Shown in pieces: positions 1,630 through 57,899 of a DNA stretch of 64,000 nt. The notes under the pieces were generated by a model. That model saw only the letters and a program-made list of their open reading frames with translations. It was not told the DNA's origin and ran no database searches. This stretch comes from Craspedostauros australis (taxonomy: Eukaryota; Bacillariophyta; Bacillariophyceae; Mastogloiales; Achnanthaceae). Every line of letters begins with the position of its first letter. Position 1 is the stretch's first letter. The stretch is from NCBI GenBank assembly GCA_026770025.1, contig JAMXDE010000005.1, positions 1,240,001 through 1,304,000 on the forward strand, in the 5' to 3' direction. Position numbers and translations under genes: made by a program.

Positions 1630-2980
1630 ATGCGTCGCTCTTCCCATCTGCCGCTGTGGTTCGCGTGCCTCCAGTTGCTCCCAGCAATTGTCACGGGACG
1701 GTTTGCGCTGACAGGCCCCGTGGTTTCGTTGACACTGCGAGAACGGGCCTCCGCATCCGCAGCAACATCAACATCAAGCAAGGATGATGGTGATGCTGAC
1801 AGCGATGAAGCCTCGAAGCGATGGCTGAACATGGACAGCCTTCATCCGACAGCGCTGTGGACGCTGGACAGCACGAGACGCCCGTTGCCGAATTGGTTCC
1901 CAGCCCTCAAATCTCTCAAGACCAATCTGGCGTACAGATACGACGATCTCAAGCGGATGCCGTCCTTCGTCGAGACGGACGCCGCCATCTCCACCAGCGT
2001 CTGCGACCTCAACATCCAACCATCGTACGAGTTCCGTTCCAAGCGCGTCAACCTCCTCGTGATGGCATCGCGCGGTGCGTCATATGCCATGGCTCGATTC
2101 GCGACGCGAGGCGATCGATGGTTGGAGTTCGCCAAGGGATGTTGCACGGTCAACTTCCCTCGGGCCACTGCTTCGTCGGTGTTAGGTGGTATCCGCGTCA
2201 CGCCCGCCTACGATTTCCTCCAGAACGAGGCATCCTGCAAGGTGGAGGCGACGACGGGCACGCAACGAACGAAGGCGGTGCTGGATTTGGAATCAAGAAA
2301 CCCCACAGTCTCCATCGTCCATGCTCTTGACGAAAGGTACGCACGTCTACAAAAAACTTGGTGTCTGCGGTGTATCATTCGTAGACACATGCTTGTGCAT
2401 GTGTACGTTTGATTCGAAAACTTGCATGCGGCTGTCTGCGTTGACATTTGACTTGACCATCCCGCATAGCGACTTGGATCAGATTTGCCATGGCCTAGCT
2501 GGTCTGGCCTGCCTTTATCCGATCGGATTTGTTGGTGGCCTCTTGAATGCAGACTTGAACATCCATTATCAAGCAGAGAGCAAGCATGGTCGCCACTCCC
2601 GAACAATCGACATTCCGTCCTCACCGTTCCACAACAACTGTATGTTTCCACTTTCGCGACCTCGGCCTCCCAACTCGCGATCATGGCACCGAAACCATCC
2701 ACCTGTTTCACTCCACTTGGACGCATTGCGCGTTTGGAACAGACACACGATCGCCCCTGTCATTTCTCTGCGAGATGCGAAGATCACCTACCAGTGGAGC
2801 ATTGCGCTATCATCTGGGTCGATCCGGGCGAAAGTGGATCCCACATCAGCAGTGTACCTCACGTGGACTGATAAATCTACGCGGGGGACTTGGGTGACAG
2901 ACTTGCGCTTGCCATTGGAGGGCACGACGGTTGCCGCGCTGTCTGCTGATGTGCAGATCCGTCGGCAGTTCGTGTTCTAA
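1630..2980 (+). CDS. Beta-barrel-like (outer membrane protein-like) protein, two exons
   Basis: I model exons 1630-2336 and 2743-2980 (314 aa) with a 406-bp intron (GTACGC...AACAG) that rejoins the frame inside an Arg codon: ...VHALDER/HTIAPVISL. The evidence is inferential: the second exon consists of alternating polar/hydrophobic strands (AKITYQWSIAL, SAVYLTWTD, WVTDLRLPL) and the protein ends in RRQFVF, with the terminal Phe typical of outer-membrane beta barrels. Exon 1 has a hydrophobic N-terminus after MRRSSH (signal or anchor), a Ser/Ala linker, then more strand-like segments. An outer envelope location (plastid or mitochondrion) is a guess. The open frame extends 43 codons upstream of the first ATG without another ATG, which sets the start. 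I do not recognise the family by name. Confidence 0.6.
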
Positions 2981-3225
2981 CCGTTCTGCAGTGTACGTAC
3001 TCGTGGAGCAGCATGTCTACTAGCACATAGCATGCAAAATTAAACGTGAAGTGAGCTATAGGAGGAAGGAAAGGCCATGGTCTTGCTGTTCCTGTGATGT
3101 GGTGACAGGAAGGAACGAAGACTTCGCGAATCTGTTCGCGAAACGTGATAAGCACCTTTCGAGGTCGTCGGTTGTACAACTTGACACACCAGAATCGGCG
3201 CCATTCAAATAGAACGTCTGTAGTT

Positions 3226-5140
3226 CGTAGACTTCCATGTGACTCCGATTCTGTCGGTTGAATTGGAAGAGGAGTCATAGTGCGTCCCATTTATCTCGTC
3301 AGTTGCACATATGCGAACACGAACCTCCGTCCATGTGAGCAGAGGCTCCATCACCTTGCGAAACGATGGACAAGCAGATTTATCAACACCCTTCTCCATC
3401 CAATCGTGTGGGTATGGCACAAGGATACCACGACTATGTCCAGACAACGAATTCCGACGGTTGTGATGCCAAAGATTCTTGGTGGGGTGACTTTCGGCCT
3501 CAGCAGCCAATTCAGATTTATTGATTCGTTCTTCCTCATCTGTGCACTCCGTGCCATCTTTTGCGAATCGACGACGCACCAAAGTGTCCCGATTGATGGT
3601 CGTCACTTCTATTCCTCCTCCAGGTGTTCTCCCTGCAGTCCTCCCCTTGCAGTTTCATCGGCATCGACTCAAGACCAAAGATCACACGCGTGTAATAAAT
3701 CTCAGGATCTTCTCCCCATCGTCTTGGGCAGACAACAACAGAATAGGGCACTGCCCTCACCGAATCTCGAAAAAACGAGAAAGATCCGAAGGATCTGTGC
3801 ATAGGATCCCAAGGCAGCTTCTCCGGTGCGCGTCTGTATGCACATACATTGTCGCATACTTGTCAGCGTTTGGATTTATAGCCTCTTTGATCTTGTCTGG
3901 ATTCCTTCCCGTTGTCCTCCTGACAAGGTGACACTCGACGGAACTCCCCAGATGCTGCACGGCCGGTGATGCCTCCAAAACACATCCTGGTTCGTCGTTT
4001 CTGATTCCCTCCGGATCTTTCTCACTTGAGGTGGTTGGGAATTATTGGTGGAGATGAAACACGTGCAGTTGTCAGCATCTCGGAGACAGATCGGCAGTAG
4101 GACACCTACTGCGATGGCTGTACGATCGTATCCAAAACCAATCCAACCCCCAACTTCCAACCCTCCAACATCGTTTGCCTGTTCGATCGCCTGTGCGCTC
4201 GCATCGTTTGTGTGCCCACATCGCTCGTATCTCCGACAATGAATTGATGCACATTTCCACACATCCTCACAAAAAGCAAAATCTGGATTGATTCACCCAT
4301 CAAACGCCAAAAGCCAACAACACCACCATGAAGCTCTCCGTTTCCTCCGCCATCGCTGCCACCCTCATGGGCATGTTCTCCACCGCCAACGCCGACGTCC
4401 TCTTGCAGAGCTTCGCCGGTGACAGCGGCTGGGAGGTGAAGACCGACAACGTCATCCCTGGTGGATCCTCCGTGGGCAACCTCCAGGGGGCAGGCGATCG
4501 TTCTTACTTCGATGGGTTTGTCAATTTCCAGCCATTCATTGGCCAACCAGGATTCGTCAAGATCGTTGGCACCAAGGCCTTCCCAAACATCGCTGGCTGC
4601 GCTGCCATCGAGGTCACCATGAACTCCCTCGTCGGCTACAATGGATACTTCATTGCCCTCGGAGACACTCCTCCGACTCCCGATATGCCAATTCCATTCG
4701 AATGGCGCGCCGCCATCCCTATCCCTGGACCAGGCCAGAACGGATACACCATCCCACTCGATGAGTTCAGCAACTACTGGGACTTTTCCACCGGCAAGAT
4801 CATCGTCCCATGCTACGCCGACCCAAGTGTCTGCCCAACCCCAGCTGTGCTGTCCAACATCCAGTTCATGGAGATCTGGGCACAAGGAGTCGAGGGACAG
4901 TTCGTCACTGATCTCTTCAGCATCAAGGCAGTCGGCTGCTAAATTGGCAGTTGTGGCCTCCGCCCTCTTCGAGGAGGGTTATGGGCATGGATCCCGGTGG
5001 CGCGAATTCAAGCAGATCCTGCCAATGCCAACTGGATGATGATTGCAAACCTACCGCATCTTCACACAGAATCGGTTGGTTTCATGCGGACTCATAAACA
5101 GCAGCAGCAATAGTCATACCCTTCACATGTCCACGCTCCT
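3226..5140. repeat. Left arm of a ~1.9-kb inverted segmental duplication
   Basis: This stretch matches the reverse complement of about 57985-59655. Matching landmarks include the GTGCGTCCCATTTAT word (3280s; reversed near 59590), the CACGAACCTCCG word, the TTTCTCACTTGAGGTGGTTGGG word (4018-4040; reversed near 59115), the whole CIA30-like gene, and the 3' stretch CACAGAATCGGTTGGTTTC (5070s; reversed near 58045). The left arm carries roughly 340 extra bases between about 3410 and 3850. The 3226-4327 part has no convincing gene of its own; open frames there are not conserved between the two arms. Confidence 0.9.
4328..4942 (+). CDS. Secreted CIA30-like domain protein, copy 1
   Basis: This is a 204-aa single-exon protein. 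Residues 1-22 are a textbook signal peptide (MKLSVSSAIAATL...STANA), so it enters the secretory route. The mature part begins with LLQSFAGDSGWEVKTDNVIPGG, then SSVGNLQG, a central FDGFVNFQPFIGQPGFVKI and a C-terminal TDLFSIKAVGC; this order (Trp, Asp, GGxS, GF) resembles the CIA30 / galactose-binding-like jelly-roll fold. In mitochondria CIA30 proteins assist complex I assembly, but a signal peptide argues for an extracellular or wall role here. Four Cys may form disulfides. Its inverted paralogue at 58180-58794 has the same length and differs at about 36 residues by my count. ATG in ACCACCATGA context. The family assignment is moderate; the gene call is strong. Confidence 0.8.
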   Translation: MKLSVSSAIAATLMGMFSTANADVLLQSFAGDSGWEVKTDNVIPGGSSVGNLQGAGDRSYFDGFVNFQPFIGQPGFVKIVGTKAFPNIAGCAAIEVTMNSLVGYNGYFIALGDTPPTPDMPIPFEWRAAIPIPGPGQNGYTIPLDEFSNYWDFSTGKIIVPCYADPSVCPTPAVLSNIQFMEIWAQGVEGQFVTDLFSIKAVGC

Positions 5141-26762: not shown

Positions 26763-27621
26763 CGTCCAATCGGTTTGCTTCGTTCCTTGTCTAGCTGCCT
26801 TCTGGTGTCTTGCTTGGTCTTGTTGGGCTTCTTTGTGGGGTTGTTCGATTGGAGGACGCAACTGGGTTGTTGTCTGTCTCCTGCACTCTGCCAACGCTCT
26901 CTGTGTCTCTCGGTCGTGCAGGTTTCTGCGTCTCTGTGTGTGTGCAAGTCCTTGCGCAGAAGTGCAATGGCGGTGTCGTTGGATGGAGTCCTGTCTTCGT
27001 TTCCACCATTCATCTTGGTGGCACACCGAATCGTGGTGTCCAATGTCACAACGGTTGTGTCGTGGTTTTTTGCTCGTCGCGTCGAGAAAAATCGGACTTC
27101 TCATGACCGTTGATAGAATTTTCTCCTCGACTAGTCAGTCGTGGTGGTCATCGAGCGCGTTATCGTCCAAGCGGTTTACTCTCATCGGATCTAGAGAGAG
27201 TAAGAGTGAGAGAACTTCGCAATCTCTGAATCCTTGTTCCTTGTTGTGATGGTGAATGGAGATGAACTCGTAGTTTTCAGGGTAAAAGTCGTACTTGATA
27301 AGAATCTGCATTGCTCGCTCGAGTCTAAAGTTCCCGTCCGTTTCCTAATCAAACGTGGTACCAGTCGTTTTCCGGACAATAGTCATCGATGGAGAGGTTG
27401 GGATGGATTGAAGTTGCCTCCGGAGTACGTTACTCCTCATGTATGTTTGTATCGTAAAAGAGATCCAGCAACGCAAGGTCCACTTGCGCAGCACCAGCAG
27501 CACAGTTGCTAGGTTGACCTCCCCGCGCCAGAGACGATGTTTGCAATGAGTGGTCGAGAGATCACATCGGTGCAACAATCTAACTGCAAAAGAGATTGAC
27601 GGGCTGATTTCACGGCGCGGC

Positions 27622-27626
27622 AAAAA
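27622..27626 (-). terminator. T5 pol III terminator after permuted tRNA
   Basis: On the minus strand a TCTCTC stretch and then five T residues follow the anticodon-side end of the 5' half, the position where a pol III transcript of a permuted tRNA should stop. Confidence 0.75.
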
Positions 27627-27632
27627 GAGAGA

Positions 27633-27710
27633 TCGTAGTCAGACGCCTTGCCGTTGGGCCAACAGGTCACCGAGAAACCTGCCCGGGATTCGAACCCGGA
27701 ATCTTCTGAT
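27633..27710 (-). tRNA. Circularly permuted tRNA-Arg (ACG)
   Basis: Read on the minus strand, the order is: 3' half (27710-27675), spacer CTCGGT (27674-27669), 5' half (27668-27633). The 3' half holds the 3' anticodon strand TCAGA, variable loop AGATT, T arm CCGGG-TTCGAAT-CCCGG, acceptor strand GCAGGTT and discriminator T. The 5' half holds acceptor GACCTGT, T8-G9, D stem GCC/GGC with a GG-containing loop, G26, anticodon strand TCTGA and loop start CTACGA. Acceptor strands pair over 7 bp (two G-U), anticodon strands over 5 bp; the anticodon is ACG (Arg). Box B therefore precedes box A. The leader (GAAGAG) and trailer (CTCTTT) can pair, as expected for the splicing-endonuclease substrate. All parts are seen directly; processing is inferred from known permuted tRNAs. 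Confidence 0.88.
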
Positions 27711-28176
27711 GGCTGACTCTTCAGTGTCACTTGATGCTTAAAATGTGTTTTACATATGTTTTTGTTATTTTGTTTGTGTTGATTTCTGCTCGTCATGTGC
27801 CGTTTCATTTCGCATTCAACGTTACCGTCCTCAATTCGGCAGAACCGCATTCGAAATGAGGATTGGCACACACCACAACGATCATGGTTGGACATACGAT
27901 CAGCGAGTTGATGATGTAATGTCAGTGGACCTCCCCAGCTGCCTCGTTTGACACAACCCAACAAACCAATCTGTTCATTTTCGTTGTGTTCACCGATTAC
28001 GGTTGTGCACACTGATCCCGATTCCAATCGTGATCACGACACAATGACGACCACGAGAACAGGAGACACAGCGCAAAGACAAACAACCACTTCCACGCCG
28101 ACGAACAAAACCCTCGCAACCCTTTCAACACAAAAGTACAAGTAGAACGAACGCTAAAATCAGCATCTACATCACC

Positions 28177-38857: not shown

Positions 38858-39816
38858 CAGCAGTTCGGTATGAACGGGACGTAGCAGAGCACTAGTAGAG
38901 CAGACAAATGCGGTTGAGCAATAGCAATAAGCCGGTCGCTGTGGGAAGGGCATAATACGACGCTACAATACCCTCTGCACTTGCAGTATTATATTCCTTT
39001 GTGTTCCTGCTTCAGCGCTGATTGTGATCGAGAAGACCATTCTGCTCATCCAAGGTAGGGAAACACAACACGGCGCAATCCACCCGACCAACAGCTCACC
39101 CAATCTACGCCTTTTCTGCTAGACTCGAGCTGAGGCACGAGACAGAAGCTTGCTTTACCCCCAAGCACTTTGGGTAGGCAAGTAGGTATTATACCTCACA
39201 AACAATCATGTTTCTCGTAACCCACATTGCGGCCCATGTTGCTCTTGGCGAGGTTGCGGCAGTGCGGCCGCAGCTCCCGGTGGCCCTCTTGAATCAGCCT
39301 GTTGAGAAAATTGCGTGCGTTGCCGGGCAGGAACGGAACCAGGTACGAGAGATGCGTTGAAGGCGGTGCGACGGGGACTCAACTACGAGTAGTGCGCATG
39401 GTCCGTCCACCGATCGCAGAAGAGACTTTGAAATGGAGTCCCTACGTACTTGAGAATCTGAAGTTCTTTCGTGGTCAGAAAATCAGTGATTCGATGTGGC
39501 TGTCGATGTCGCTGTTGTGGAAATGAGGTATTCTGGAACAAGCGACGAAAGGCGACATTCGTAGGTCATACGCGACGGCAAGGCCTTGGCCTTGGCCTTG
39601 GCCTTGTCTGCTCTATGCTATTTTGCTTGGCTCATTCTTGCGGTCCTCTGCTCTCTGTCACTATTTCGTTGCCGTCAGCGGCGGCGGCACCAGCAGTCGA
39701 AATGGAATTGTACAGCAGAGGAGTAAAGTATAATACCCTCTACTCCAATTGAATCCGGCTCGGTCGGATTGGCTTGCGACATGCATCTTTGACCAGGCTG
39801 TCGATTGTTTGTTGGT
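38858..39816. other. Intergenic up to Copia-1
   Basis: No gene is supported. A CCTTGG tandem lies at 39583-39606. Confidence 0.6.
39583..39606. repeat. CCTTGG tandem, about four units
   Basis: Consecutive CCTTGG units inside an otherwise unassigned spacer. Confidence 0.85.
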
Positions 39817-39987
39817 CCAAGGAGACGCGAGCGTTATTTCGGTTAATTGGGCGTTAGACAGGGCATCAGCGGCTGAATCGTACGCAGCACAGTAGAGACC
39901 ACGTCAGGGGTAAATGGCTCATGCCTTGTGCTCATAATCAATCAGTTTCCCTTCGATTCCATGCCTTTCCCCGCAAGTAGAGTTTGG
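39817..39987 (+). repeat. Copia-1 5' LTR
   Basis: 171 bp, identical to 48397-48567. Ends are CCAA...TTGG instead of the usual TG...CA. Confidence 0.9.
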
Positions 39988-40560
39988 TTTATCATTGACT
40001 CGTCGCTCTTTCTGAGCAACAACACAGAGGAACAGCCTGAGGAGGCTACGATAATACTGGGCTGCAACATGTGCAGATCCCGCCACGGCCGGCACAGCCT
40101 GTATAGTGCGGTGTCTCCTTTGACTACCATGTGCTGGTGATTTTCGATCAACACCAGAGAGACATCAACTCAGTGTTCTCGCAAATGCGTAACTGAGTGG
40201 CAATGATGGACGCATCATGCATGTGATCGACATGTTCGTTCCTTGAGTCGGCTGCCCATGGTGGTAGTACAGATCCTGGGTGCAAATTTCCCGCTTCGCG
40301 ACTTCACAACATACGGAACAAGGACGCAGTAGCGCGACTGCTGGGGGAAATGGACATGATGTAACGAGACTAACTGCAGATGCGCCGTGTTCCAGCGTGT
40401 TAATCTGCCTTCGCTTTGTCTGTTGTTCTGTTGTTTTGAGCGTCACGGAACGCATTCGCTTTTCTCACAAAAACCACAATTCGCACGATTAACACACGAT
40501 TACAACACAGACAACAACAGCAACCAAGACGAGTATACCAACGCATGAAAGACAATCACC

Positions 40561-42054
40561 ATGGCAGGAGCAGCAGCAGAGTTACAGAACTACCTTCGAA
40601 ATGTGCTACTGTTTCCAGAAGATGCAATGGGTCAAGCGTTGAAGGAGCAAGGGATTGCGTCATTTGACGACCTGCTCGCCTTTGATGATGACGAGATCCA
40701 AGGCTTATGCAAAACGATTCGACAAGGCAGTGGCTACATTCAGAACCCGTCATTTGTACCCTCAAAGCCAGATACTGGAATACCGACGATGATCAAGAAT
40801 CCAGGAGTGCCTTTTGGATGGGTCTACGAACAGCGATTACGACAACTTCGATATTTACGATTTCATTACAGCCGCATTCAACGGACTTTCACGTCTTCGA
40901 GCGCCACACTATCAAGATTGAAGAATGTGTGGAGCCTGTTCAAGGAAGAGACACGCATCAAGAAAGCAGACCCTCTGCCAGTACCAGAATTGCTTACCAA
41001 GATCGAGAATGTCAGGGAAACATTGGAAGATATCAAGAACTATTTGGAGAATACACTTGGAAGCAAGGACGTGCCTTTGGCATACGTCGTTCGACCAGAT
41101 TCGGCAAAACCAGAAGACAGATCTCCACCTGTGATACAAGGATTCGGAGAGCCGACATTATTGGACGAACTCATTGATCGAGCACCACACGTGGAGTTGA
41201 CCTACAGAACAGACAATGCTGCGGTTTGGCAAGTAATCCGAGCTGTGACACATGGAGGTCCAGCGTGGAATTGGGTGCAAGGATTCGAACAATCCAAGGA
41301 CGGACGTGCAGGACATCAGGCGTTGGAACAACACTATCGTGGAGACTCTTACCAAGCGAGAACGAAAGCGTCAGCAGATAAGATCATCGCAGAGTCTTAC
41401 TTTGATGGAAAAGCACGAAACTTCACATTCGAGACTTACGCACAACGACTGAACTCAGCTTTCGAGGACCTCGCACAAGGTGGTGAACCACAAGTCGAAG
41501 AAGCAAAAGTGCGACGTCTCACACGTGGTATCAAAGATGACCGACTCAAAGCTGCATGCGAAGTTGTACGTGCAACGCCATCAATTCGATCCAGCTTCCA
41601 CAACACAGTCAACTATTTGTCGGAATCATTGGATCAACGCACTGATACTGCAGTCAACAGACGTATCGCAGGATTACAAGGCAATAGTCCAAAGTACCGG
41701 CGTCGCTCAGGTGGAGGTAGAGGTCGGGGTGGCAGAGGTGGTCGAGGAAGAGGTGGTGACAAGAGCAAGCCACAATATGATGCGAATATGAAAGTCACAG
41801 ACAGATACTACGATCGAGATGAATGGGCTGCAATGTCAGCATCGCAAAGGGCTCGTGCTATTGCATTAAGACAGGAACGTGACGCGAGACGAGGAGTCGC
41901 AGTGGTCAGCACGCAGGGTCAGAGCACAAATCAGCGAAACGAGGAGGTGTCACAATTGACTTCTGCTGCCTCGGGAGGTGCCTCCACCAACCAGCAGCAA
42001 AGGAGCGGCATCGGTGCTTTCGTGACGCGCCGAAACCAACAAAGCCAGTCCTGA
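40561..42054 (+). CDS. gag: Copia-1 gag
   Basis: The product is 497 aa. It has a helical capsid-like region (about 130-360) and an RGG-rich RNA-binding stretch (GGGRGRGGRGGRGRGG, about 380-396) in place of a zinc knuckle. Its TGA at 42052-42054 is followed in the same frame by the protease, so gag and pol differ only by this stop codon. Confidence 0.85.
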   Translation: MAGAAAELQNYLRNVLLFPEDAMGQALKEQGIASFDDLLAFDDDEIQGLCKTIRQGSGYIQNPSFVPSKPDTGIPTMIKNPGVPFGWVYEQRLRQLRYLRFHYSRIQRTFTSSSATLSRLKNVWSLFKEETRIKKADPLPVPELLTKIENVRETLEDIKNYLENTLGSKDVPLAYVVRPDSAKPEDRSPPVIQGFGEPTLLDELIDRAPHVELTYRTDNAAVWQVIRAVTHGGPAWNWVQGFEQSKDGRAGHQALEQHYRGDSYQARTKASADKIIAESYFDGKARNFTFETYAQRLNSAFEDLAQGGEPQVEEAKVRRLTRGIKDDRLKAACEVVRATPSIRSSFHNTVNYLSESLDQRTDTAVNRRIAGLQGNSPKYRRRSGGGRGRGGRGGRGRGGDKSKPQYDANMKVTDRYYDRDEWAAMSASQRARAIALRQERDARRGVAVVSTQGQSTNQRNEEVSQLTSAASGGASTNQQQRSGIGAFVTRRNQQSQS

Positions 42055-43294
42055 CATGAGGCGGGAGGACGTCGCCAGACAGCCGCGACGAGTCAATCCC
42101 TCCCACCTGACACATCCAGGGCTGAGCTGGACTCACACGCTGACACTTGTGCTTTCGGACCATCTGCTTACATTGTGCATCGTACCTCACAAACTGTCAC
42201 AACATCACCATTTTTGGACACATTGGGAGACGTCGAGAACGTGCCCATTGTAACAGCGGCAATTGCATATGATGATCCGATCTCGTACACGACTTACATT
42301 CTCTTCTTTCCTCAATCGTTATACTTCGACAATTTACGACATCCGCTGTTGTGTCCACATCAAATGCGCATGGCTGGCATTACAATCAATGAAACACCTC
42401 TCACGATGTTGCCGGAGGATGAGCGCCATGCACACTCACATTCTATTCTTTATTCACATTACGATCTGCATATTCCTCTTCAGCTACATGGTACAGTTTC
42501 CTACTTCCATATACGCAAACCTACCAAGGACGAGATCAGGTCCGATCATGATTGCGTACACGTCTACATGACATCCGATCAGTATTGGGATCCAGCCCAG
42601 CTGTCGACAGGGGACGATGAGGCGTCCATCCGTACCAAGCTTGAGTCAGAAAAGCAGATGCAACACATTTCATCACTTACATGTCAACGCGAAATACATT
42701 CCATTCAACATGCACGTACCTCCAATCGAAAGGGGACGGTTACGCCAGAACAGCTGGCAGCAAGGTGGCGCATCGGTATTGAAGCAGCACGACGCACGCT
42801 TGGCGTCACAACACAATTGGCTGTCAGAGACTTCAGCACGACAACGGGAACACGTCGTTTGGTTCCATATGCAATGCAACTTCGATATCGCCGCCTCAAC
42901 ACCAAGATGTACACGGATACCATGATCGCGAAGACAAAGTCCATGCGCGGAAACAAGTGTGCCATGATCTATTGTACGCCGTTTCATTGGGTTCGAGTGT
43001 ACCCAATGGCAGCCCGACGCGAAGCTGCACAGACACTTGACGAATTATTCAGAGACTACGGAATTCCGCACACCATGATACCAGATAATGCGAAAGAGCT
43101 TGTCGAAGGCGACTTCAAAGCAAAGCTTCTCAAGGCACAGGTTTCACTTCGACCAATTGAAGCCTACATTCACAATCAGAACAAGGCTGAAGCGACAATT
43201 CGTGAGCTCAGACGTCACTACCGTCGACTCATGACATCCACGAACACACCAGCATACCTATGGGACTATTGCTTCGAGTATTGTGCCGAGATCC
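42055..43294 (+). pseudogene. pol: Copia-1 pol, protease and integrase 5' part
   Basis: In frame with gag just after its TGA. The protease motif ELDSHADTCAFG lies 35-45 codons in; the integrase core follows with MYTDTM (first Asp), IPDNAKEL (second Asp) and NKAEATIREL (Glu). The frame is cut at CAEIL by the non-LTR insertion; it stays open into the insert, which creates a chimeric frame of over 1000 codons ending at 45396. Confidence 0.85.
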
Positions 43295-45624
43295 TGAATC
43301 GGTGCAGGGTAAAAATGCAGGTGATGACGACTGGGGACGTGGCGTGCGCGGAAGCAGAGCTCCCTCCAGAGACGGCACGCGGCCGATGGCGAGGACGAGC
43401 TAGCATAGCTTGGCCGCGGCAAGGACCAATACCGGACCAAGACTGGAGGTTGTGGGGGAGAGCGATACGCAGAGTGCGAGGACAGCTCTCGACAGACGGC
43501 CGAATGGTGGCTCCACCGGAAGCTCTATGGGAGGTGAGCACAAGCGCAGTGTGGACCAGGGAGAGCGGGGGTCACTGGCAGAAGTGGGCAGCACGAGCTG
43601 GCGACGACCCAGGATTACAGGGATTCCGGCGCCAAGGGCAACCCACAGAACTGGCAGCAACGCAGGGACGCCAAGTATGGCTCCGACAACGGGATGAACA
43701 GGTATACGTGGTGGGAGTGGGCAGATGGTGGAGACAACCGAGCGGGGCTGTGAGGTCGGAGTTCGGGGAAGCCGCAGCGAAGTGGGTCCAGGCAACACGA
43801 GAAGGTAGAGCTGTTATCAGCACCGATGGGTCGTTTAAGGACGGCAGGAGCACGGCGGCTTTCTCGTTGAACGTGCGAGGGCAACGTGATGGATGCCTAC
43901 AGATGGCGGGGCCGGTGCAAGGAAGACAAGCAATACAAAGCGCGTACCGAGCAGAGCTAGGTGGCATATACCAAGCCCTGGTGGTGGCTGACAGAATGCT
44001 TCGGGAATCCGGCACAGAGAGCGGTGCTTCTGCGGCGACAGTTGTGGTCGCCTGCGACAACCGCATGGCCGGCATCCATGCCGTGGAATACGATCGCGAT
44101 GTACACATCGGAGTCCAGCACTTCGACCTCTTGAGGGCGATACGACAGGTGACAAGGACGATACCAGCAAAACTTGAGTATCGACATGTGTATGGTCACC
44201 AGCTGGAGCGCGATCGTGGCGTCGCGAGAGACGAGTTTACTTACTGGAATGATGACGTTGATCGCCTGGCTGGAGTGGAGCAGAAAAGCCACAAGAGCAG
44301 CACAGACGGCGAGTGGAGAGACGATGAGTGGTCGGTGTGGCTTCGGTCATGTAAAGTGTGTCGAGGTGTGAAGACTGAACTTCGGAGCCATGTCCAGAGT
44401 GCGAAGACGTGGGCGTGGCAGCGCAAAACCAAGAAGATGTCGGCGGAGGTGATCGAGCGCATCGACGTGGAGTCGGTTCAGGCAGCTATGGGGCGACTAG
44501 GCAGTGCGCGAAAACGATGGGTGGTGAAGCATGCCGCGGGGTTCGGGCCAGTGGGGCGTAATATGGCGAAGTGGGGGTTCTGGGCGAGCAGCGAGTGCCC
44601 GATTTGTCACGACGAAGAAGAGACGACGGAGCATATATTGCAGTGCCGACACCCCGCAGCAATGGCAGTGAGGGAAGCTGCGCTTTCCGAATGGAAGGAC
44701 GACATGCTGCAGGCCGGAGGAGATGTGGGCATGGTGAGCGAAATAGTGCGCCAAATCAGGAGCTGGTGCAATAAGGAGGAGCCAGAGCCACGAGCACAGC
44801 GAGTGGTCCAAGATGCCGTTAACGATCAGCAGGCGATCGGTTGGGGGATGATGACGAGAGGGAGGTGGTCCAAGAGGTGGCGACAGGTTCAGTCAGCTCG
44901 AATGGAGATCGAGGAACGGCCTATGAAACCGGCAAACTGGATGGGAGTGGCAGTCGTCGGACTGTGGGACGTGCGATGGAAAGCCTGGGAGGCGCGAAAC
45001 AGGGTGCTACATGACCGGGAAGGGCGCAAGCGCGAAGCCGCTGAGACGGTAGCAGTGTGCAGGATGGTGAATCAGCAGTGGGAGATGGGGGATGCAGGCA
45101 TTATGGCGGCGGATCGTGGGCTGCTAGCGAATGTTACACGGAACGAACTCGCAAGGTGGCCCGTGGACGACCAGCGCCGATGGGTGAGGCATGTGCAGGC
45201 AGCGCGGAGCGCGACCAGAGCAGCCAGCGAGCGGAGGAGTGCCGTGGAAAGCGAGGCACGCGGAGAGAGCCAAGGGCTTGCGAACGACGCGAGACGGCAA
45301 CGACGAGGGCGGGGCAGGAGCAAGCGACGGTTTGCTGCGGCTTCAGGTGACGGAAGGGCGAGAAAGCGACGACGTGGCGGACGGATCGGTACATGAAGCA
45401 AGTGAAGAGCATGGCGGGCGCAAGCCGGATGCCCAGTGCGGTATGTTAGATGGCCCATGGAGCTGGCAAACCATGGTAGACTAGGTAGTGAGAGACCCAG
45501 TGCAGTCGTTCCAGCGCAATCGGCCTTTGGCTCGTTGTATGCGGTCGACTCTAAAGCCTTCGAGGCAACCCTGTGCGCAGGGGATATTCAGTGAGTTATT
45601 ATTATTATTATTGTGCCGAGATCC
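43279..45624 (+). mobile_element. Nested 5'-truncated non-LTR retrotransposon
   Basis: The insert (43295-45608) is flanked by a 16-base direct repeat TATTGTGCCGAGATCC at 43279-43294 and 45609-45624 and ends in a TTA microsatellite, both hallmarks of target-primed reverse transcription. Only the 3' part is present: a linker, an RNase H domain and a C-terminal zinc motif; endonuclease and reverse transcriptase are missing. Base composition is more G-rich than the host element. Confidence 0.9.
43295..45396 (+). pseudogene. Non-LTR element ORF, C-terminal RNase H and zinc region
   Basis: About 700 codons, lacking the N-terminal part. An RNase H fold is visible with VISTDGSFKDG (Asp), YRAELGGIYQAL (Glu), VVACDNRMAG (Asp) and EYRHVYGHQ. 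Further on is a zinc motif KWGFWASSECPICHDEE with TEHILQCRHP, as found at the end of many non-LTR elements. The tail is very basic (RRQRRGRGRSKRRF). The region 45397-45608 is its 3' UTR. Confidence 0.8.
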
Positions 45625-46157
45625 GAAGCAACACTGCATTACAAATCTACGATCTGCACGGTCAGACACCAACGACGATACTGACTGGTGACACAGCTGA
45701 CATCTCACACATTTCTGAATTTGGGTGGTTCGACTTTGTGTGGTACATCAATCCACAAGATGCTGAAATGAATACCAAGCATCTCGGTCGCTACCTCGGT
45801 CCTTCACGAACCGTGGGAGAGGCAATGTGCTCGTATGTTCTCACCCAATCCGGCATTGTTGTTTCTAAATCTTCTGTGATTCCTTTGTCCGTTGCCGACC
45901 AAAACAGTGAAGCAATCAAGCAGAGACAGGCCGATTACATGTCCAAGCTACAGGCGAAATGGAAAGATCGAATGGAGGGCATCCAACCTGAAGACGACGG
46001 CGATGATGTCGATGATACCGCCGAAGATATTGCTTTCCTCGAACAGCAACAACCTTTGCAACCATTATCAGAATCCGCAGATGCGGAGACTGATGCATAC
46101 GATCGATACCTATCGGCACGAGTGTTATTGTCAACTGGCGATGACATGCATCTATAA
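45609..46157 (+). pseudogene. pol: Copia-1 pol, integrase C-terminal part
   Basis: It resumes the integrase after the insertion: RSNTALQIYDLHGQTPTTIL, then FGWFDFVWYINPQD and a linker ending YDRYLSARVLLSTGDDM. The frame stops at TAA 46155-46157; the reverse transcriptase continues one base ahead, a +1 shift. Confidence 0.85.
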
Positions 46158-48204
46158 CGCAAATCAAATCGCAAACAGCATATACGCACGGATGGATGAA
46201 GACGGATACACGACACTACTCATGGAAGATATCATCGATCACAAGAAACTACCAACAGCGGCAAACGTCAGCGACACCAATACAACCAAGTCAACCAAAG
46301 GGTGGAAGCTATGTGTACTGTGGAAGGACGGGTCTACATCGTGGATTCATTTGAGAGATGCGAAGGAAGCCGACCCAGTCAAGACAGCCGAATACGCAGA
46401 CATCAACAATCTTGCTCATGAACCCGCTTTCCGTTGGTGGGTTCCCTACACTTTGAAGCGACGAAACAGGATCATTATGGCAAATCGGAAGCGATACTTC
46501 AGACGAAATGAGAAATACGGCCTCGAACTACCGAAGACAGTTCAGCGTGCACTTGCTATTGACGAGGAGACAGGCACCGATCTATGGCGCAAGGCACTCG
46601 AACGGGAGATGAAGAACGTCCGTCCAGCATTTTCAATCAAGAATGAAGATACCAAGCCACCAATCGGTCATACATACATTGAATGTCACATGATATTCGA
46701 CATCAAGGTCGATCTCACACGAAAGGCACGGCTCGTTGCCGGAGGCCACATGACGGAGACACCATCAAGCATCACATACGCGAGTGTGGTCACGCGCGAA
46801 AGCGTTCGAATCGCATTCCTTCTCGCAGCACTCAACGATCTCGATGTGCAAGCAGCCGACGTGATGAACGCCTATCTGAATGCACCATGCCGTGAACAAG
46901 TATACACAACGTGTGGACCTGAATTCGGAGAAGACGCCGGAAAGATTGCCATCATCTGTCGAGCATTATACGGATTGAAGTCGAGTGGCGCTGCTTGGAG
47001 GGCACATCTCGCAGAGACACTCAGAGACTCGCTCGGATTCACCTCGTGCCGCGCTGACAGCGATGTATGGTTCAAACCTGGAGAGACGAGCGATGGGTCA
47101 AAGTATTACGAGTACATCCTCGTGTACACTGACGACATTCTTGCCGTTTCCAAGGACCCGCGCGCCTTACTCTCACAAATTGATTCTTTCTTTCTACTCA
47201 AACCCAAATCCATCGGTCCACCAACATCATACCTCGGTTCAACCATTGCTCCCTTCCATCTGAAAGCAGAGCCTGAGCGGCCCAAGTGGAGCATGGGATC
47301 ACAACGCTACATTCGAGAAGTCATCAAGATGGTCAAACACTGGCTCGAGGAACGTGGTGGCAGATTTCGCAACACTGCATCATGCGTCCTACCGAATGGA
47401 TATCATCCTGAACTTGACTCAACGTCCTTGTGTGATCCTGAAGAGATGAACTACTACCAACAGATGATCGGAATATTGAGGTGGATCGTTGAGTTGGGGC
47501 GAATCGACATATGCTGCGAGACGAGCATGATGTCAACATACTGTGCAGCGCCGCGGACAGGTCACTTGCGTGCTCTCTTTCACATCTTCTCTTATTTAAA
47601 CTCACATGACCGATCACGACTGGTCTTTGATGATGCCTACATCGAAAAGGGCAACATCCAGACTCCGGATTGGGCTTCTTTCTATCCTGATGCACACGAA
47701 ATGATACCTCACGACATGCCGGAACCGAGAGGCAAGGAAGTGCAAATGACGTGCTTTGTTGACGCGGATCATGCTGGTGACCAAGTCACTCGCAGATCAC
47801 GCACAGGTGTATTGCTTTGTTTAAATTCCTCACCCATCCTATGGTACAGCAAGAAGCAACACGGAATTGAGACTTCTACATTTGGTTCAGAATTCACCGC
47901 ACTCAAGACAGCCATGGAGATTGTGATTGGCATGAGATACAAGCTTCGAATGATGGGTGTTCCTTTGGATGGACCAGCCGACATCAGAGTTGACAATCAG
48001 AGCGTCGTCTACAACACATCTGCACCCGAATCACAACTCAGGAAGAAGGCCAACGCAATTGCATACCACTTCGTTCGAGAGAATGTGGCTGCTGGAGTGG
48101 CAACCATTCAATATGAACCATCGGAAACCAATCTGGCTGACATGCTAACCAAGCCTCAGCCGGGACCACGAAGGAGAGAGCAAGCTCAGCGCATTCTCTT
48201 CTAA
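46158..48204 (+). CDS. pol: Copia-1 reverse transcriptase and RNase H
   Basis: A clean frame overlapping the end of the integrase frame. Reverse transcriptase motifs: KARLVAGGHMTE, ADVMNAYLNAP, ICRALYGLKSSGAAWR and YTDDILAVSKD; RNase H: VDADHAGDQVTRRSRTG and NLADMLTKPQP. No in-frame ATG is required if it is expressed by frameshifting from the integrase frame. Confidence 0.88.
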
Positions 48205-48389
48205 TGCATCGAAGCTGCGCGACAGTACCCACCGGATGGTCTGCTGGAGAGTAATCTCTCAGTGGATGGGATGAGCGCCCTGTGGTGTCCTAATGTGAGG
48301 GCATGCAGCAGGTACATACCGTACGAGCAAGAGCGACAATGACAGCGAGAGAATGAGACGATCTGACGGAACCACAGCCACCGCATATC

Positions 48390-48396
48390 GAGGGGA
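48390..48396 (+). other. Copia-1 polypurine tract
   Basis: GAGGGGA abuts the 3' LTR, the usual plus-strand priming site. Confidence 0.7.
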
Positions 48397-48567
48397 CCAA
48401 GGAGACGCGAGCGTTATTTCGGTTAATTGGGCGTTAGACAGGGCATCAGCGGCTGAATCGTACGCAGCACAGTAGAGACCACGTCAGGGGTAAATGGCTC
48501 ATGCCTTGTGCTCATAATCAATCAGTTTCCCTTCGATTCCATGCCTTTCCCCGCAAGTAGAGTTTGG
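48397..48567 (+). repeat. Copia-1 3' LTR
   Basis: Identical to 39817-39987. Confidence 0.9.
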
Positions 48568-50389: not shown

Positions 50390-51070
50390 TGTTGGAAATC
50401 CGGGGTTAGTGTTAGTAAGAACTAATTCGTTGTTAGATCGTACTATTCAGAACTGTGAGCTCATTCTCTTCAGCTCCTTTGCCTTTCGTTTCTCATGTAG
50501 CATCTCTTGCAGCATCATCTCGTTAGACTGTTGCATTCATGCATCTCATCATCATGGATCATCACTTGCATGCATGAGGCCTCATCCGCAGGCATCCTTG
50601 TCATGCACATCGTCGTGCATATCTGAAGGCATTCCTGCCTTGCGACTCGTCGTGCATATCCTTATTCTACATTCCCTGCGGTACGATTCCACAGTCTTGC
50701 GTTTCGCTCTTGATCTCCTGACACCAAACTTTACGATTGGTGTCATGATTGATGTCATGTTTGATGCCCTTTCTGAGTTGTTCTAGTCCGTGGCTGACAC
50801 GTGCCATGATCTCCAGATGGGGTGATCATCAATGTGTCGGTCATCATCTTCCTTCACATGGTTTAGATGTCGTGGCCTTTTCTTGATTCATAGAGGACAG
50901 GCTTGTTTGCTTGGTAAGACTGGGGTCATTCCCGTGTGATTCGTGTCGTGGGTGGAATGGACAATATTCAATGGTGTGACGAATAATATCCAAAGGTGTG
51001 ACAAATAATGTTGGGAGTTGCGGCAATCATGGGTATCTTTCCGACAGAGTCGTACCCTCGATTCCTGACA
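50390..51070 (-). repeat. Copia-2 3' LTR
   Basis: 681 bp, near-identical to 57219-57899. Confidence 0.95.
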
Positions 51071-51145
51071 CCCTTCCATTGTCGCATCGACAACACATCA
51101 CTCACACTCTCACATTTTTCATAATTTCACGTCCTCTCCTCTCCG

Positions 51146-54100
51146 TCACTGATCCATTGTGGAACGCAGTTGTATGTAGTGATCCCTGTGTTTTTCGTAG
51201 ATCTCCTTTTTGGTATTCTTCGTAAAGCCGTCTGCGATGTTGTCTTCAGAACGCACAAATTTGGTTCTGGCCTCTCCATTTGTAATCAGTTCTCGAATGA
51301 AATGATGTCGGATGTCGATGTGCCGTGTCCTGGCGGATGTTGATGGGTTGGACGCGATGAAGATCGCTCCAACATTGTCAACCATCACATCTGCCGGCTT
51401 GTGCATCCTCAGTCCGATGTCGCTCATCAATTGTGTTACGAAGCGAATTTCTTTTCCTGCTTCCGACAGGGCGACGTACTCTGCTTCCGTCGAGCTGAGT
51501 GTTACGCTCCGTTGTGCCTTTGATCTCCATATGATCGGCACTCCTTGTAGTAGGACGATGTGCTCTCCTACGCTGATGCGATTGTCCTTGTCACCTGCGA
51601 ATTCGCTGTCGGTGTATATTGCAATCTTCCATGCATCTTGGGTCAGTGGACTCGGTTTCATCTTCAGTCCATACTCTCTTGTGTCCCATACGAACTTCAT
51701 GACTCGAAGCATTTCCTTGTATGCTGCGGCTGTTGGTCTATCCAACACCTTGGTCAGTTCTCGCACTGCATTGGCGATGTCGGGTCGAGAGTGTTTCACC
51801 AGGTATAGCAGCATACCTACTCCGCTTCGGTATCTGCTGTGTCGCTGCTTGTCCACTTTGGGTGCATCGTTTTGCCTTTGGATGCCTTGCCCTGGTGTCC
51901 CAGGCGTTCCGTATCGTTGCAGCTTCACCACATCGCTTCCGAATGTATCGATGATGTTCTTTAGGATGTGTGGTTGGTTCACCCAACAGTTCGTCTTGTC
52001 GCGGTTGAAGATGATCTTGCAGCTCAGGTAGTCTTCGAGATCTTCCTCCACTTTGACGCCGAATCGTTCCGCTCGGATATCCTTCACGAGCTTTTTCAAT
52101 TCCTGCTCCTCTCCGATGCAGAGGCAATCGTCCACATAGGTGCCGATCAGTAGCAGTCTCCCTTCCTGATTCCGAATCAGTAGGCAAGGGTCCACCTCGC
52201 TCTGTCTGAACCCCAATTTGAATAGGATGTCGACGAGCTTCTTGTTCCATTGTCTCGCGCTCTGCACGAGTCCGTAGATGGTTTTCTTGAGTAGCAGGCA
52301 TTCGTTGGCTTCGTGCCTCATACCCTTCGGGCACTGCATGTAGATCTCTTCATCGAGTTCTCCATGCAGGAATGCTGTCTCAAAGTCGATGATGATACTG
52401 TCCATATGTAATATCATCTTCATCGTGAGCATGATTCGATATGTTGCATCATGTATCACTGGTGCGTGGTGTGCCGAGAAATCGACTCCTGCGATCTGCG
52501 AGTATCCGCATGCCACGAGTCTGGCGCGGAATACCCCGTTTCTCTTTTCCTTGAAAACCCATTTGGTCTTCACACACCGCCGATCCTTCGGCATCTGGTC
52601 CTTCTTGATTTTTTCCCATACTTTCCTTCTGGCCATATCGTAGAACTCTTTGTTGATAGCTTCGCGCCATTTCTTTCTTTTGTTGGGATCCGCATGGTCC
52701 CAGCAGTCCTCGAATGTGGTGGGGTCCAGTAGCATTGCGACATTCGCGTAATCTGCCCCTTCCTCATTTCTTTCTTCTTTCAATGCTTGGTCCGCAGCGA
52801 TGATGTCGTCTAATCTCATCATTCCATGAGGTGTGTCTATCATCGTACCTGCGATATCTCTGTTGAATATTGACCCGTCTGCGTGGAAGTCGGGTCCTCC
52901 TGTTTCCGGTGGAGTTGTGATGGTTTCTTCGGGCGTCACATATCCCTCGCTGTCATTAGGTTCTGACTCATCACTTGATCCGAGATCTCGCTCCTCCTCT
53001 GGGATTGGGTCGTTGTTGTACCCGGCGAGAGCGCTCAGCATCCTTGGTATGCGTGTTACAGGTTCTGCGACAGGGGTGTCTTCGGGCTCTTTCTCGGCTG
53101 CTTCGTCTACTTTCCCCTCGTCGTCCCTTCCGAATTCATCGTCGATCTCTTCGTTCGATTCATTTTCCCCTTGGGCAGGGAGCAAGCTATCTTGCCCTCG
53201 CGCAGCGTCATCAGTATCTTCTATTTCTTCGGCTCTGCTGCTGCGATCCGCGTCGTTGGCCTCCATGCTCTTGATGGTCTCCGATCGTCGCTCCCAAGTT
53301 GTCCTCGTAGTTCGGGTGTTCATACCCGACGTAGAGTCGTCATCTTCTAGATCTATCAGCACAGATCTGTTGGCATTCTCGATACCTCTGAATTGCCCGT
53401 ATGACTGATTCATCCATGTCACATCTCTCATGATTAGGATCTTGGTTGTTGCGAGATTCAGCATTCGATATACTCCCTTTGCGTGCGATTGGCCGTAGCC
53501 GACGAACATGGCTGGTCTGGATCTATCGTCCAGCTTAGCCTTTATCGTACGACCGCCGATGTACACCATGCCTATTTCTCTGAATTTTTGTAATCCATCC
53601 ACGAATGTTGGGATGCGGTTGTTGAAGAGAACACATGCTGGTTCTCTTGTCTTTGTCTCGATAATATTTTCGAGCTGAGTCGCGGTTCGGGCTGCCTCCG
53701 CCCATAATTTTCCACGCACTGTTCTTGGTAGATGTGTTTGATTGAGCATGGAGCGGACTTTCCCGTACAGCGTCGCGAATTTTCTTTCCACGCGACCGTT
53801 CTGTTGGGGAGTGGAAGCGGCAGTGAATTCGAACGTTGGACCGAACCCTGCGTCGAGAAGCTGTTTCTCCGCGGCATAATTCTCTCCCGCGTTGTCACAT
53901 CTGATATTTTTCACATGTGCCTGTTGATTGGAGTGAAGCCATCGGAGGAGCGTGATCAGCTTTTCTCCGACTTCACTTTTCTCTTTCAAAAAGTAACTCC
54001 AGCAGTAATCACTGTAATCGTCGATGACAAGGAGCCAATATTTTCCTTGTCCGTAGCTGTGCGTTTGAACACTCGATGTGTCAATGAACAACCACTCACC

Positions 54101-57100
54101 AATTTCTTCTGCTCGGCGCTGCAGGCGTTTTGTCATTGACTTCTGCTTCTGTTTTCCAATTGCGCAGTCAATGCATGCATGCAACTTGCCTGTGACATTC
54201 CAACCGTATCGTCCCGCTGTGCGAGAGATCGTGTAAGTGTCAACATGGCCTAACATTTTATGAATTTGGTTGATGTCCACCGCGGACCTGATGGACACGC
54301 CGACATTGGCTTGGTCTTCGTGGGGAGGGGCACTGATCATGTTCACTCCACTCACGAAACCGCTATGGGTTGCCATGAGTCTGTCGAACGTGATGCGTTG
54401 CCCGCGCTTCTCCAAGCTCATCACGACACCTTGGTTGCTGATGTCGAAGCCGTTCTCGAGAGCTTTGTTGATGCTCAAGAGGTTCACCCACAGGTTGGGC
54501 ACGAACTTCACTTGCTTGAGCACGATGGTAGCTTGGTTCCCGTTCTTCTGCATCACGACCATGCGTTTATCGCCAACCTTTGTTGCCTTGAGGTATCGGC
54601 CGCTGCCGATCTTGATGGAGTGGTTGGCCACTCGCACGTTAATCATTCCCTCTTCGCTATTGGTGAGGTGGCATGAGGCACCGGAATCACCCAGCCAAGT
54701 GTTTGCTTCGTGGTGGTCGGGGGCGATGGTGTGGCGGAGTGCGCTTGCATCGTCGAGGTCACCGATCACCATGGCCATGTCTGGTTGAGCGTCTTGGTGG
54801 TCGCCAATCACCATGGCCATGTCTGGTTGAGCATCGGCGGCTCGGTAGATGGGGAGCTGGTTGAACTCCTCTGGGTCTCGGACTCCTTGGTCACTTGGAT
54901 GATGCATCCACATCAGCATCTCTGCGGCATGCTGAACCAGGCTGTCGATGAGCCCTCTGTGGATGGGTGGCAAGTTGAGTTCCTCAAGTCTTGCGTTGAT
55001 GTGTTGCACGGCTTGCACCAATTGCATTGGCGTGAACACGTCGATGCGATGCATCATGTAGTAGAGCGTGCGAGGGTTCAGACTTTCTCCTCCTCCTTCG
55101 GTGTACGCGTGCGCCGCGTCGCAGCACAGTAGGGCGAGCTCAGAGCGTACTTCGTCAGCAACCATCATGTTGCTGAGAGAGTATCTCATTGCGACGTGCA
55201 GGGGTCCTGCAGTCCAGAGCTTCTGGCGGCGCGTCATGATGTCTTGAATCGTTGTTGGCGCCGCCCTTGCAGGGGGATTTGCCAGTTGGATGAGGAACGG
55301 CGAGTTACGGCAGGTCTTGCACATGGCGTAGAGAGGGCCGCGCTGAAAGCACAGCGGGCACCATCCTGCGGTGCTTCCTCCGTTGCGGGACGACTCTTCG
55401 ATCATTCGATCGACCAGAGTCCTTGGTTCGGTTCGAGAGTAGATGGTGGAGGTGACACGATGGTCGACTCCAGGCATCGCTACTTCATTCTCCATGATGT
55501 CTCCGACGTTGAGGGGTTCATCCTCGTAGACGATCCCTTCGAAGAGATTGTCTTTGTCGGTGTAGTCGTCTTCATCGCTTGATGGGAATTGCTCGCGGTT
55601 GATTGTCTCAACTGCAGCAACTGGGGGCCCGTAGTATCCGTACACACTTGGGGTGTGGGCCTCTCGTTCCTCTTCAGAGTACTCGTCCTCTTCTTCGATG
55701 TCAAGTCCGATCATGTCTTCGTCGGTGGTTGCGAGGGCCATGTCGTTGATGGACGACTCGTAGTGCGCCATGTTGGAGGTGTTGATTGTTTGGTTTTTCT
55801 TGATGTTCGTGATTTCGTCGATTGTCACGATTCTTGGGTTGGTCACATTTTTGACCTCAACGGGGTCGTTTTCGAGCTCGTCGGTGGGGAAACACATCAA
55901 TTCTTCGTTGTTGACCGACTTGTCTTCGTCGGGCAACCACATTGATTCGTCGGTCATCACGAGACCGACTTCGTCTTCTTCGTCGTCAGCGGACATCCAC
56001 ATGGGTTCATCTACCACGACGAACGCGGCGTTGTCTGCCGCGGCGTCTTCGGGTAGCCACATCGGTTCTTCGACCATCACGAGGGCGACGTCGTCTGTTC
56101 CGTCCATGCTGTCGGTGGCCACATTGGCGGCGTCGGCTGCTCTCATCGCTGCCTTCAACTTGAAGCACTCGAGGATCTTGTGTCCCTTCTTACCGCAGTA
56201 CTTGCAGTTTCCGTTGAACTTGGCCTTGTCCTCAGTATCACTTCTCTTGTTCTTCTTCGAGGGCTTGCCTCCTTTGTTCTTAGGCGCAGAGCGGCAGTCA
56301 GCCTTCTTGTGCCCGTAGGCGCCACAGTTGCGGCAGTGGCCCTTGAACCCACCTGTGGCGGCGAGTGCCATTTCTTCCTTGCTATGGTTCTCGCGCTTAC
56401 TACCACCTTGCTTGATGTGACGTGCGTCGTAGGTTGCGCTCACTGCTTCGCGGATGTCTTCGATAGTCATCTGCTTTTCGATGTTCTCGAACTTGAGCTC
56501 GATGAGCTTCACATCCATTTCGTAGTCCCTTCCGAGAGCGTTGAGCACGAGCATGTGGTACTGCTCCATGTCCATGTTAACTCCCGCGTGCTTGAGACGG
56601 TTACGGATCACCTCCATTTCGGTGAGGAAGGTATCCGGGTGTTCGCCTTTCTTCAATCGCATCCCGTTGAGTTGAGCCAACAACTTTGCCTTCATTGGCG
56701 CAGTGCGTTGCTCGTAGATGCGCTCGAGAGCCTTCCACGCCTTACGAGGGTCTCCTCCCTCGTAGATGTTGCTCTCGCATCCCAACACAGCCATGAAGGC
56801 GACATCGCCTTCGGTGGTTTCATGGTTGATTGCCATGGTCAGTTCTTCAAACGCGTACTTGGCCAGAGCCTTCTTGTACTCCGCCTTCTCCTCGGGAGAC
56901 ATGGCAGATAACTTCGAGGCCTTAAGCTTCTTCTCTTCGCTTCCCGCGATGGAGGCGAGGGGAGAGGGGTCAAAAGCCTCGGTCTTCACAATCACTTCAC
57001 CCAAGTCCTTGAGATACAAGTCTCCGTAACCTTTGCGGTTGGCGCGGGCGAGGAACTTCGCACTCCAAGCTTTCCAGGAGGATCGCTTGCCGTCGAACAT

Positions 57101-57139: not shown

Positions 57140-57218
57140 GGTGATGATGGTGAGAGTCGTTTGTTGCTGTGTTGGTGATGATGGAAACGTAGGATTTCAA
57201 TCGTAACGTTTCGAAACG

Positions 57219-57899
57219 TGTTGGAAATCCGGGGTTAGTGTTAGTAAGAACTAATTCGTTGTTAGATCGTACTATTCAGAACTGTGAGCTCATTCTCTTC
57301 AGCTCCTTTGCCTTTCGTTTCTCATGTAGCATCTCTTGCAGCATCATCTCGTTAGACTGTTGCATTCATGCATCTCATCATCATGGATCATCACTTGCAT
57401 GCATGAGGCCTCATCCGCAGGCATCCTTGTCATGCACATCGTCGTGCATATCTGAAGGCATTCCTGCCTTGCGACTCGTCGTGCATATCCTTATTCTACA
57501 TTCCCTGCGGTACGATTCCACAGTCTTGCGTTTCGCTCTTGATCTCCTGACACCAAACTTTACGATTGGTGTCATGATTGATGTCATGTTTGATGCCCTT
57601 TCTGAGTTGTTCTAGTCCGTGGCTGACACGTGCCATGATCTCCAGATGGGGTGATCATCAATGTGTCGGTCATCATCTTCCTTCACATGGTTTAGATGTC
57701 GTGGCCTTTTCTTGATTCATAGAGGACAGGCTTGTTTGCTTGGTAAGACTGGGGTCATTCCCGTGTGATTCGTGTCGTGGGTGGAATGGACAATATTCAA
57801 TGGTGTGACGAATAATATCCAAAGGTGTGACAAATAATGTTGGGAGTTGCGGCAATCATGGGTATCTTTCCGACAGAGTCGTACCCTTGATTCCTGACA
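57219..57899 (-). repeat. Copia-2 5' LTR
   Basis: 681 bp, near-identical to 50390-51070. Confidence 0.95.

Follow-up and report, generated by a model that had tools for sequence, protein, structure and literature searches.

A probable family of five circularly permuted tRNA-Arg(ACG) genes in the nuclear genome of a diatom

We analysed a stretch of 64,000 nucleotides of diatom DNA (hereafter the window) and found on its minus strand a locus whose sequence supports the reading of a circularly permuted tRNA-Arg(ACG) gene, type II in the terms of Soma. Five such loci are present in the genome. We put the probability at roughly 85% that the window locus is one of five nuclear permuted tRNA-Arg(ACG) genes with the junction at 37/38, matured via the splicing endonuclease and a ligated circle. 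The gene is real and, as far as can be judged from the DNA, very probably working; its transcription and cleavage, the circle, the ligation and the decoding by its product we infer.

Structure of the locus and its four relatives

Read on the minus strand from 27750 to 27622, the locus consists of the following elements, in this order.

27738..27750, minus strand: A+T-rich, TATA-like stretch at -40 to -28, by its A+T content a possible promoter element
27711..27720, minus strand: leader, -1 to -10; the G at -3 (27713) could pair with C32, and AGAG at -10 to -7 with CTCT of the trailer
27675..27710, minus strand: 3' half of tRNA-Arg(ACG), positions 38-73, with A38 at 27710 and U73 at 27675; first in the predicted transcript, on direct reading
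27669..27674, minus strand: 6-nt spacer CTCGGT, joining both ends of the acceptor stem
27633..27668, minus strand: 5' half of tRNA-Arg(ACG), positions 1-37, stopping in the anticodon loop at CTACGA
27628..27632, minus strand: trailer, +1 to +5, which would pair with the leader at the proposed splicing-endonuclease site
27622..27626, minus strand: T5, probable RNA polymerase III terminator

The first-pass annotation of this DNA had placed a circularly permuted tRNA-Arg(ACG) gene on the minus strand, with the T arm and the 3' acceptor strand first, then six bases, then the 5' acceptor strand and the D arm up to CTACGA, and finally T5. Direct reading gave the same order, and the stems that had been listed (GACCTGT/GCAGGTT, TCTGA/TCAGA and the T arm CCGGG-TTCGAAT-CCCGG) as well as the anticodon ACG can all be read at the locus. 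The 3' half contains A38, the anticodon-stem strand TCAGA, the variable loop AGATT, the T arm, the acceptor strand GCAGGTT and U73; the 5' half contains the acceptor strand GACCTGT, UG, the D arm, the anticodon-stem strand TCTGA and the loop bases CTACGA. Joining CTACGA to ATCAGA yields an anticodon loop of 7 nt between TCTGA and TCAGA, with ACG as the anticodon. The junction is thus 37/38, and the ends CTACGA and ATCAGA were present in all five copies. The run of T lies 3' of the 5' half and there is none in the spacer, which is the arrangement of a type II permuted gene.

The minimum-energy structure of the joined 72-mer was the cloverleaf, but it was not significantly better than those of shuffled sequences (z -1.15). 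By inspection, the conserved tRNA bases are in place (U8, A14, A15-U48, G18G19, A21, U33 and TTC at 54-56). The joined tRNA has some imperfections: a C-A mismatch at 13:22 in the D stem and the wobble pairs G1-U72 and U7-G66, the former being present also in a normally ordered Arg(TCG) gene of the same genome. Position 73 is U in all five permuted copies (L001-L005) and A in the Arg(TCG) and Arg(TCT) genes (L014, L028).

ARAGORN reported no tRNA genes in the window, and Rfam gave no matches at gathering scores, as is to be expected when the halves are swapped. To search for the swapped order, we used a covariance model (R2) made from 26 tRNAs of the genome (9 nuclear, 17 organellar) that were rearranged to the permuted order with random spacers. 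The source pool comprised 42 distinct tRNA sequences of the genome (16 nuclear, 26 organellar), from which near-duplicates, tRNAs with long or 4-nt variable loops and two with wrongly parsed anticodons were left out; the training set held neither nuclear nor plastid Arg(ACG). In the 64-kb window, the sole R2 match was at 27710-27633 (49.2 bits, E 9.7e-15, the E-values being rough), and the five loci scored 49.2 to 50.4 bits. With an earlier model (R1), trained with two of the Arg copies included, the five loci scored 61.6 to 62.7 bits; the next of 91 matches in 33 sources scored 43.8 bits and lies in L060, for which ARAGORN reports two tRNA genes next to each other. Since the R2 match is the only one in 64 kb and there are five such loci in the genome, the permuted structure is not due to chance.

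Rfam was also the source of one competing reading, in which the locus would be a YrlA-type, Y RNA-like mimic of a tRNA: a search of 27500-27850 against Rfam at E up to 1 gave RF02553 alone (20.5 bits, E 0.059). That score compares with a gathering score of 69, the flanks have no long conserved stem in common, the anticodon loop is complete and the body fills a gap in the tRNA set; we regard a mimic of this kind as extremely improbable.

The genome comprises 74,831,031 bases in 90 contigs, and the locus matched it at five places, on contigs C3 (the window), C14, C41, C43 and C33. Both halves, 72 tRNA positions together, are identical in all five copies, whereas the spacers after U73 are CTCGGT, CTGGT, CTGGA, GCGGAA and GTGAT (5-6 nt). 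When the 3-kb loci were compared by BLAST, each of the 10 pairs shared a single stretch of 77-97 bp and nothing beyond; similarity between copies stops at the gene. The proposal of a permuted gene gains from these data, which make the locus one of five scattered through the genome, the same in both halves and unrelated in their flanks, and from the contiguous-gene searches described below. Two ordinary tandem tRNA genes, whose junction was taken out of context or was made by the assembly, could in principle resemble such a locus, and tandem duplication has been proposed to give rise to permuted genes (PMC3978253). At each locus, however, a single 3' half is accompanied by a single 5' half, the search matched no outer halves nearby, and the five loci are on different contigs. 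At the assembly level this explanation is refuted, and its probability is close to nil.

What the copies share is the content of the circle (3' half, spacer and 5' half) and little outside it, which is why spread via a reverse-transcribed circle comes into consideration. Divergence of old duplicates would give the same pattern. We consider it rather unlikely that the family is at once the sole source of tRNA for CGC and CGU, making nuclear-encoded protein synthesis in a free-living diatom dependent on a circular tRNA intermediate, and possibly spread by reverse transcription of the circle. Two DNA patterns searched in viral_contigs gave no match.

The tRNA complement and the genomic context

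With the joined tRNA as a query against the genome, every match covered one half alone; there were 10, all at the five permuted loci, and none was contiguous. The 17-base anticodon arm, with up to two mismatches, occurred at 11 places in the genome versus 5 for the reversed control, and none of the 3 that were inspected is a tRNA. Likewise, a probe of human, yeast and Arabidopsis Arg(ACG) (joined end to end) had no contiguous match in the genome and, among Arg genes, hit only the permuted loci on C14 and C3, where the aligned stretch begins in the 3' half of the human tRNA, continues into the 5' half of the yeast one and so follows the permuted order. A conventional tRNA-Arg(ACG) gene, named at the outset as what would speak against a permuted one, was therefore found in none of three genome searches, within the limits that very common words are skipped, that only the best candidates are scored, that the assembly may lack pieces and that a strongly changed gene may escape; this answers the objection as far as DNA can. 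On the assembled sequence, this diatom appears to have no source of tRNA-Arg(ACG) other than the permuted loci.

The same limits lend something to a reading in which the five loci are silent relics, or give a non-translational RNA (for instance as a source of tRNA fragments), and the working tRNA comes from a diverged or unassembled ordinary gene. In relics, the tRNA positions would not have stayed identical across five loci with nothing in common around them, and the result of the anticodon-arm search, with 3 of its 11 places inspected, also speaks against such a gene. We consider this reading very improbable.

The 11-mer GACTACGAATC was tried as a mark of an ordinary Arg(ACG) gene and rejected. 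It occurred 135 times versus 4 times in the reversed control, and none of the 6 places inspected is a tRNA; four lie in one repeated element and two are unrelated. The enrichment is explained by this repeated element, which occurs on many contigs, often as pairs ≈ 11.3 kb apart (e.g. C1:106451 and C1:117751). From the spacing of the pairs, the element is probably an LTR.

Genes for other tRNAs were found in the usual order. ARAGORN, run on 32 sequences, reported normally ordered nuclear genes for 12 anticodons, including Arg(TCG) and Arg(TCT). A second set of tRNA probes gave 44 matches (40 of 45 candidates scored), all of them unbroken across 37/38 and hence in normal order; they cover Asp, Ser, initiator Met, Pro, Phe, Leu, Gly and Arg(CCT). 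The search with the probes that contained Arg(ACG) gave 12 matches: four Glu, five on Ile genes, one on contig C90 and two on permuted Arg loci. Nuclear genes of either order for Val, Gln, His, Cys, Tyr and elongator Met were not found with these probes, which may simply miss them. Arg(ACG) stands out because the other isotypes that were found are in normal order.

By the usual decoding rules, the codons CGC and CGT need the inosine form of the ACG tRNA. These two codons make up 56 of the 106 Arg codons in five reading frames of the window, counted with introns left unmodelled; of the genes concerned, two had been submitted to a search and three carry names taken from their reading frames alone.

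The host of the locus had been described as heterokont-like, and this can be narrowed to a diatom: the named relatives of two proteins, FEN1 and atpB, are mostly diatoms. For FEN1 of the window (best 120 of 5610 matches), these are Bacillariaceae, Nitzschia, Seminavis, Thalassiosira, Ditylum and Skeletonema; the best identity was 76%, a "Tiarin..." transcriptome came second and a moth entry lower. The atpB of contig C90 matches an MMETSP/EukProt entry at 100% identity and those of Nitzschia and Tryblionella at 96-97%; the two highest scores belong to an ENA protein of 618 aa and to an entry labelled Musa. The organism is likely to be a pennate diatom close to Nitzschia.

Several other features of the window and of the organellar contigs were recorded. 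The window contains two pairs of direct repeats, one of 300 nt (100% identical, 6829 apart, 50390-57518) and one of 174 nt (99%, 8580 apart, 39814-48567). Both bracket long reading frames, among them a 1997-aa frame at 51146-57139, which resemble copia-type retrotransposons. Towards the two ends of the window, at 4328-4942 (plus strand) and 58180-58860 (minus strand), there are oppositely oriented frames for small proteins that by eye are very similar and have a signal-peptide-like start. On plastid contig C90, a gene identified by eye as rpoC2-like is present as two frames (L064:528-2711 and 2980-4254), which may reflect a split gene, a frameshift or an assembly error, and a 161-aa frame (L065:2592-3077) resembles, again by eye, the Rep/helicase of small plasmids or viruses. 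Contigs C83 (79,752 bp) and C89 carry matching series of organellar tRNA genes (tRNA search, best 63 of 1610 candidates); because the series match, the two contigs are probably two forms of one organelle genome.

Flanking sequences and the proposed maturation pathway

Recognition by the eukaryotic splicing endonuclease is generally attributed to the body of the tRNA, to pairing of position 32 with the third nucleotide preceding the 3' splice site, and to bulges. In all five copies the third leader base before A38 (-3) is G, opposite C32; 30 of 20,000 random sets did equally well. Further out, leader positions -7 to -10 can pair with trailer positions +2 to +5 at 4, 2, 4, 4 and 2 of 4 positions, giving 16 of 20 outer pairs. 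This register, which had been noticed by eye before the statistical test, was the best of 10 offsets, and its 16 pairs were reached by 4 of 20,000 random leader sets. They were reached in 3 of 120 reassignments of the trailers as well (mean 12.8), where the mean is high because the trailers are alike in T-richness. Leader GAAGAG and trailer CTCTTT of the window copy had earlier been called complementary. They are, with five Watson-Crick pairs and one G-U, but they do not lie in the bulge-helix-bulge register; the pairing there that suits such a site better is AGAG (27720-27717) with CTCT (27631-27628).

The central helix is weak, with positions 32, 33, 34 and 35 paired in 5, 3, 2 and 1 of the five copies, respectively. 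Minimum-energy folds had the flank helix in two of the five copies (L003 and L004); in those of the window copy and L002, the anticodon stem is disrupted by pairing with the leader. None of the five precursors folded clearly better than its shuffles (z 0.05 to -1.03). As modelled, the flank motif is compatible with the relaxed bulge-helix-bulge forms described by Soma.

The folds also bear on the order of processing. The acceptor stem with its loop of 5-6 nt is complete in the linear precursor in five of five folds, so that RNase P and tRNase Z might open this hairpin first, leaving two paired halves that the splicing endonuclease would trim and that would then be joined in the manner of a split tRNA, with no circle formed. 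A circular intermediate was, however, detected in red and green algae according to the review by Soma (PMC3978253), and we hold the route without a circle to be improbable.

Swapping of the A and B boxes makes the usual binding of TFIIIC doubtful (PMC3978253). At -40 to -33, the A+T content is 0.75 in the window copy and on average 0.90 in the five copies, versus 0.73 in 34 normal tRNA genes and 0.46 in the background (150 stretches). Within 25 nt downstream, a run of at least 4 T was present in 5/5 permuted and 31/34 normal nuclear tRNA genes. The motif CAACA was seen upstream of 18 of the 34 normal genes, in 2 of the 5 permuted leaders and in 7 of 150 background stretches.

In the maturation pathway that we favour, which includes a circle, RNA polymerase III would most likely produce a single RNA, bounded by the A+T-rich element and the T run, that consists of leader, 3' half, spacer, 5' half and trailer. 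The ends of this transcript would be brought together at the anticodon stem and cut by the tRNA-splicing endonuclease after position 37 and before position 38, and a ligase would close the cut ends to give the circle. RNase P and tRNase Z would then remove the 5-6 nt acceptor loop, followed by addition of CCA. With A34 converted to inosine, the tRNA would decode CGU, CGC and CGA.

Genes resembling the splicing endonuclease are present in the genome, as judged by domain searches. PF01974 (tRNA_int_endo) detected two loci, one on C12, whose 43.7 bits exceed the cut-off of 27, and one on C14, which falls short of it (25.2 bits in the genome search and 21.4 bits for the 604-aa frame). For the ligase, RtcB had no matches in the genome, while 9 of 14 control genomes were positive. 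The Trl1-type domain PF09511 had no matches in the genome either, but none of the 14 controls was positive, so that this search was uninformative; a review states that homologues of Trl1 occur in diatoms (PMC4090602).

Relation to known permuted tRNA genes

The 2014 review by Soma covers one archaeon and six unicellular algae with 34 permuted tRNA genes in total, and junction 37/38 is the commonest known type; its table includes neither Arg(ACG) nor a stramenopile (PMC3978253). Later reports concern the Amorphochlora nucleomorph (PMC4494063) and Auxenochlorella (PMC12633428). The closest counterparts are the type II genes of Cyanidioschyzon merolae, Ostreococcus and Micromonas, which likewise have the 3' half first, the junction at 37/38, a short spacer and a downstream T run; their flanks are able to form a relaxed bulge-helix-bulge, with which the flanks here are compatible (PMC3978253). 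These red and green algal genes belong to a different lineage from the diatom loci and do not include Arg(ACG) in the table; moreover, the table has at most two genes per anticodon per species (Gly(CCC) in C. merolae; Ser(CGA) in O. tauri, one of them marked atypical), as compared with five loci here (PMC3978253).

The tRNA-Ser of chlorarachniophyte nucleomorphs shares the 37/38 junction and a spacer that is very short (Bigelowiella 5 bp, here 5-6 nt), but it is encoded in a reduced endosymbiont genome, whereas the loci described here are on large contigs of a 74.8-Mb genome (PMC3978253, PMC4494063). In the green alga Auxenochlorella, permuted genes were, as here, found after a standard tRNA search had given an incomplete set (PMC12633428). 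The permuted genes of Thermofilum pendens are reported as the only ones for their anticodons and so must work; they differ in that the organism is an archaeon, the junction is 59/60, CCA is encoded and introns are present (PMC3978253).

The first-pass annotation knew of no permuted tRNA in ochrophytes. In agreement, we found no report of one in diatoms or other stramenopiles in the literature searched, which mostly excludes subscription papers, so that an earlier publication is possible. In the accessible text of an ochrophyte paper (PMC11528492), "permuted" refers to 5S rRNA, and that of PMC8007984 has no mention of the word.

The gene is thus of a known kind, in a new lineage and with an unusual copy number. 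The known range, consisting of a red alga, green algae, nucleomorphs and one archaeon, would be extended to stramenopiles and to an isotype absent from Soma's 34 genes. A family of five copies in a 75-Mb genome argues against permutation being a mark of tiny genomes, and a single lineage would now allow tests of the origin and spread of permuted genes. A needed tRNA can escape standard annotation, and other diatom genomes can be re-read for the same gap. If the five loci are the sole genes for this tRNA, production of a core tRNA in this diatom would depend on the splicing endonuclease and on a ligase.
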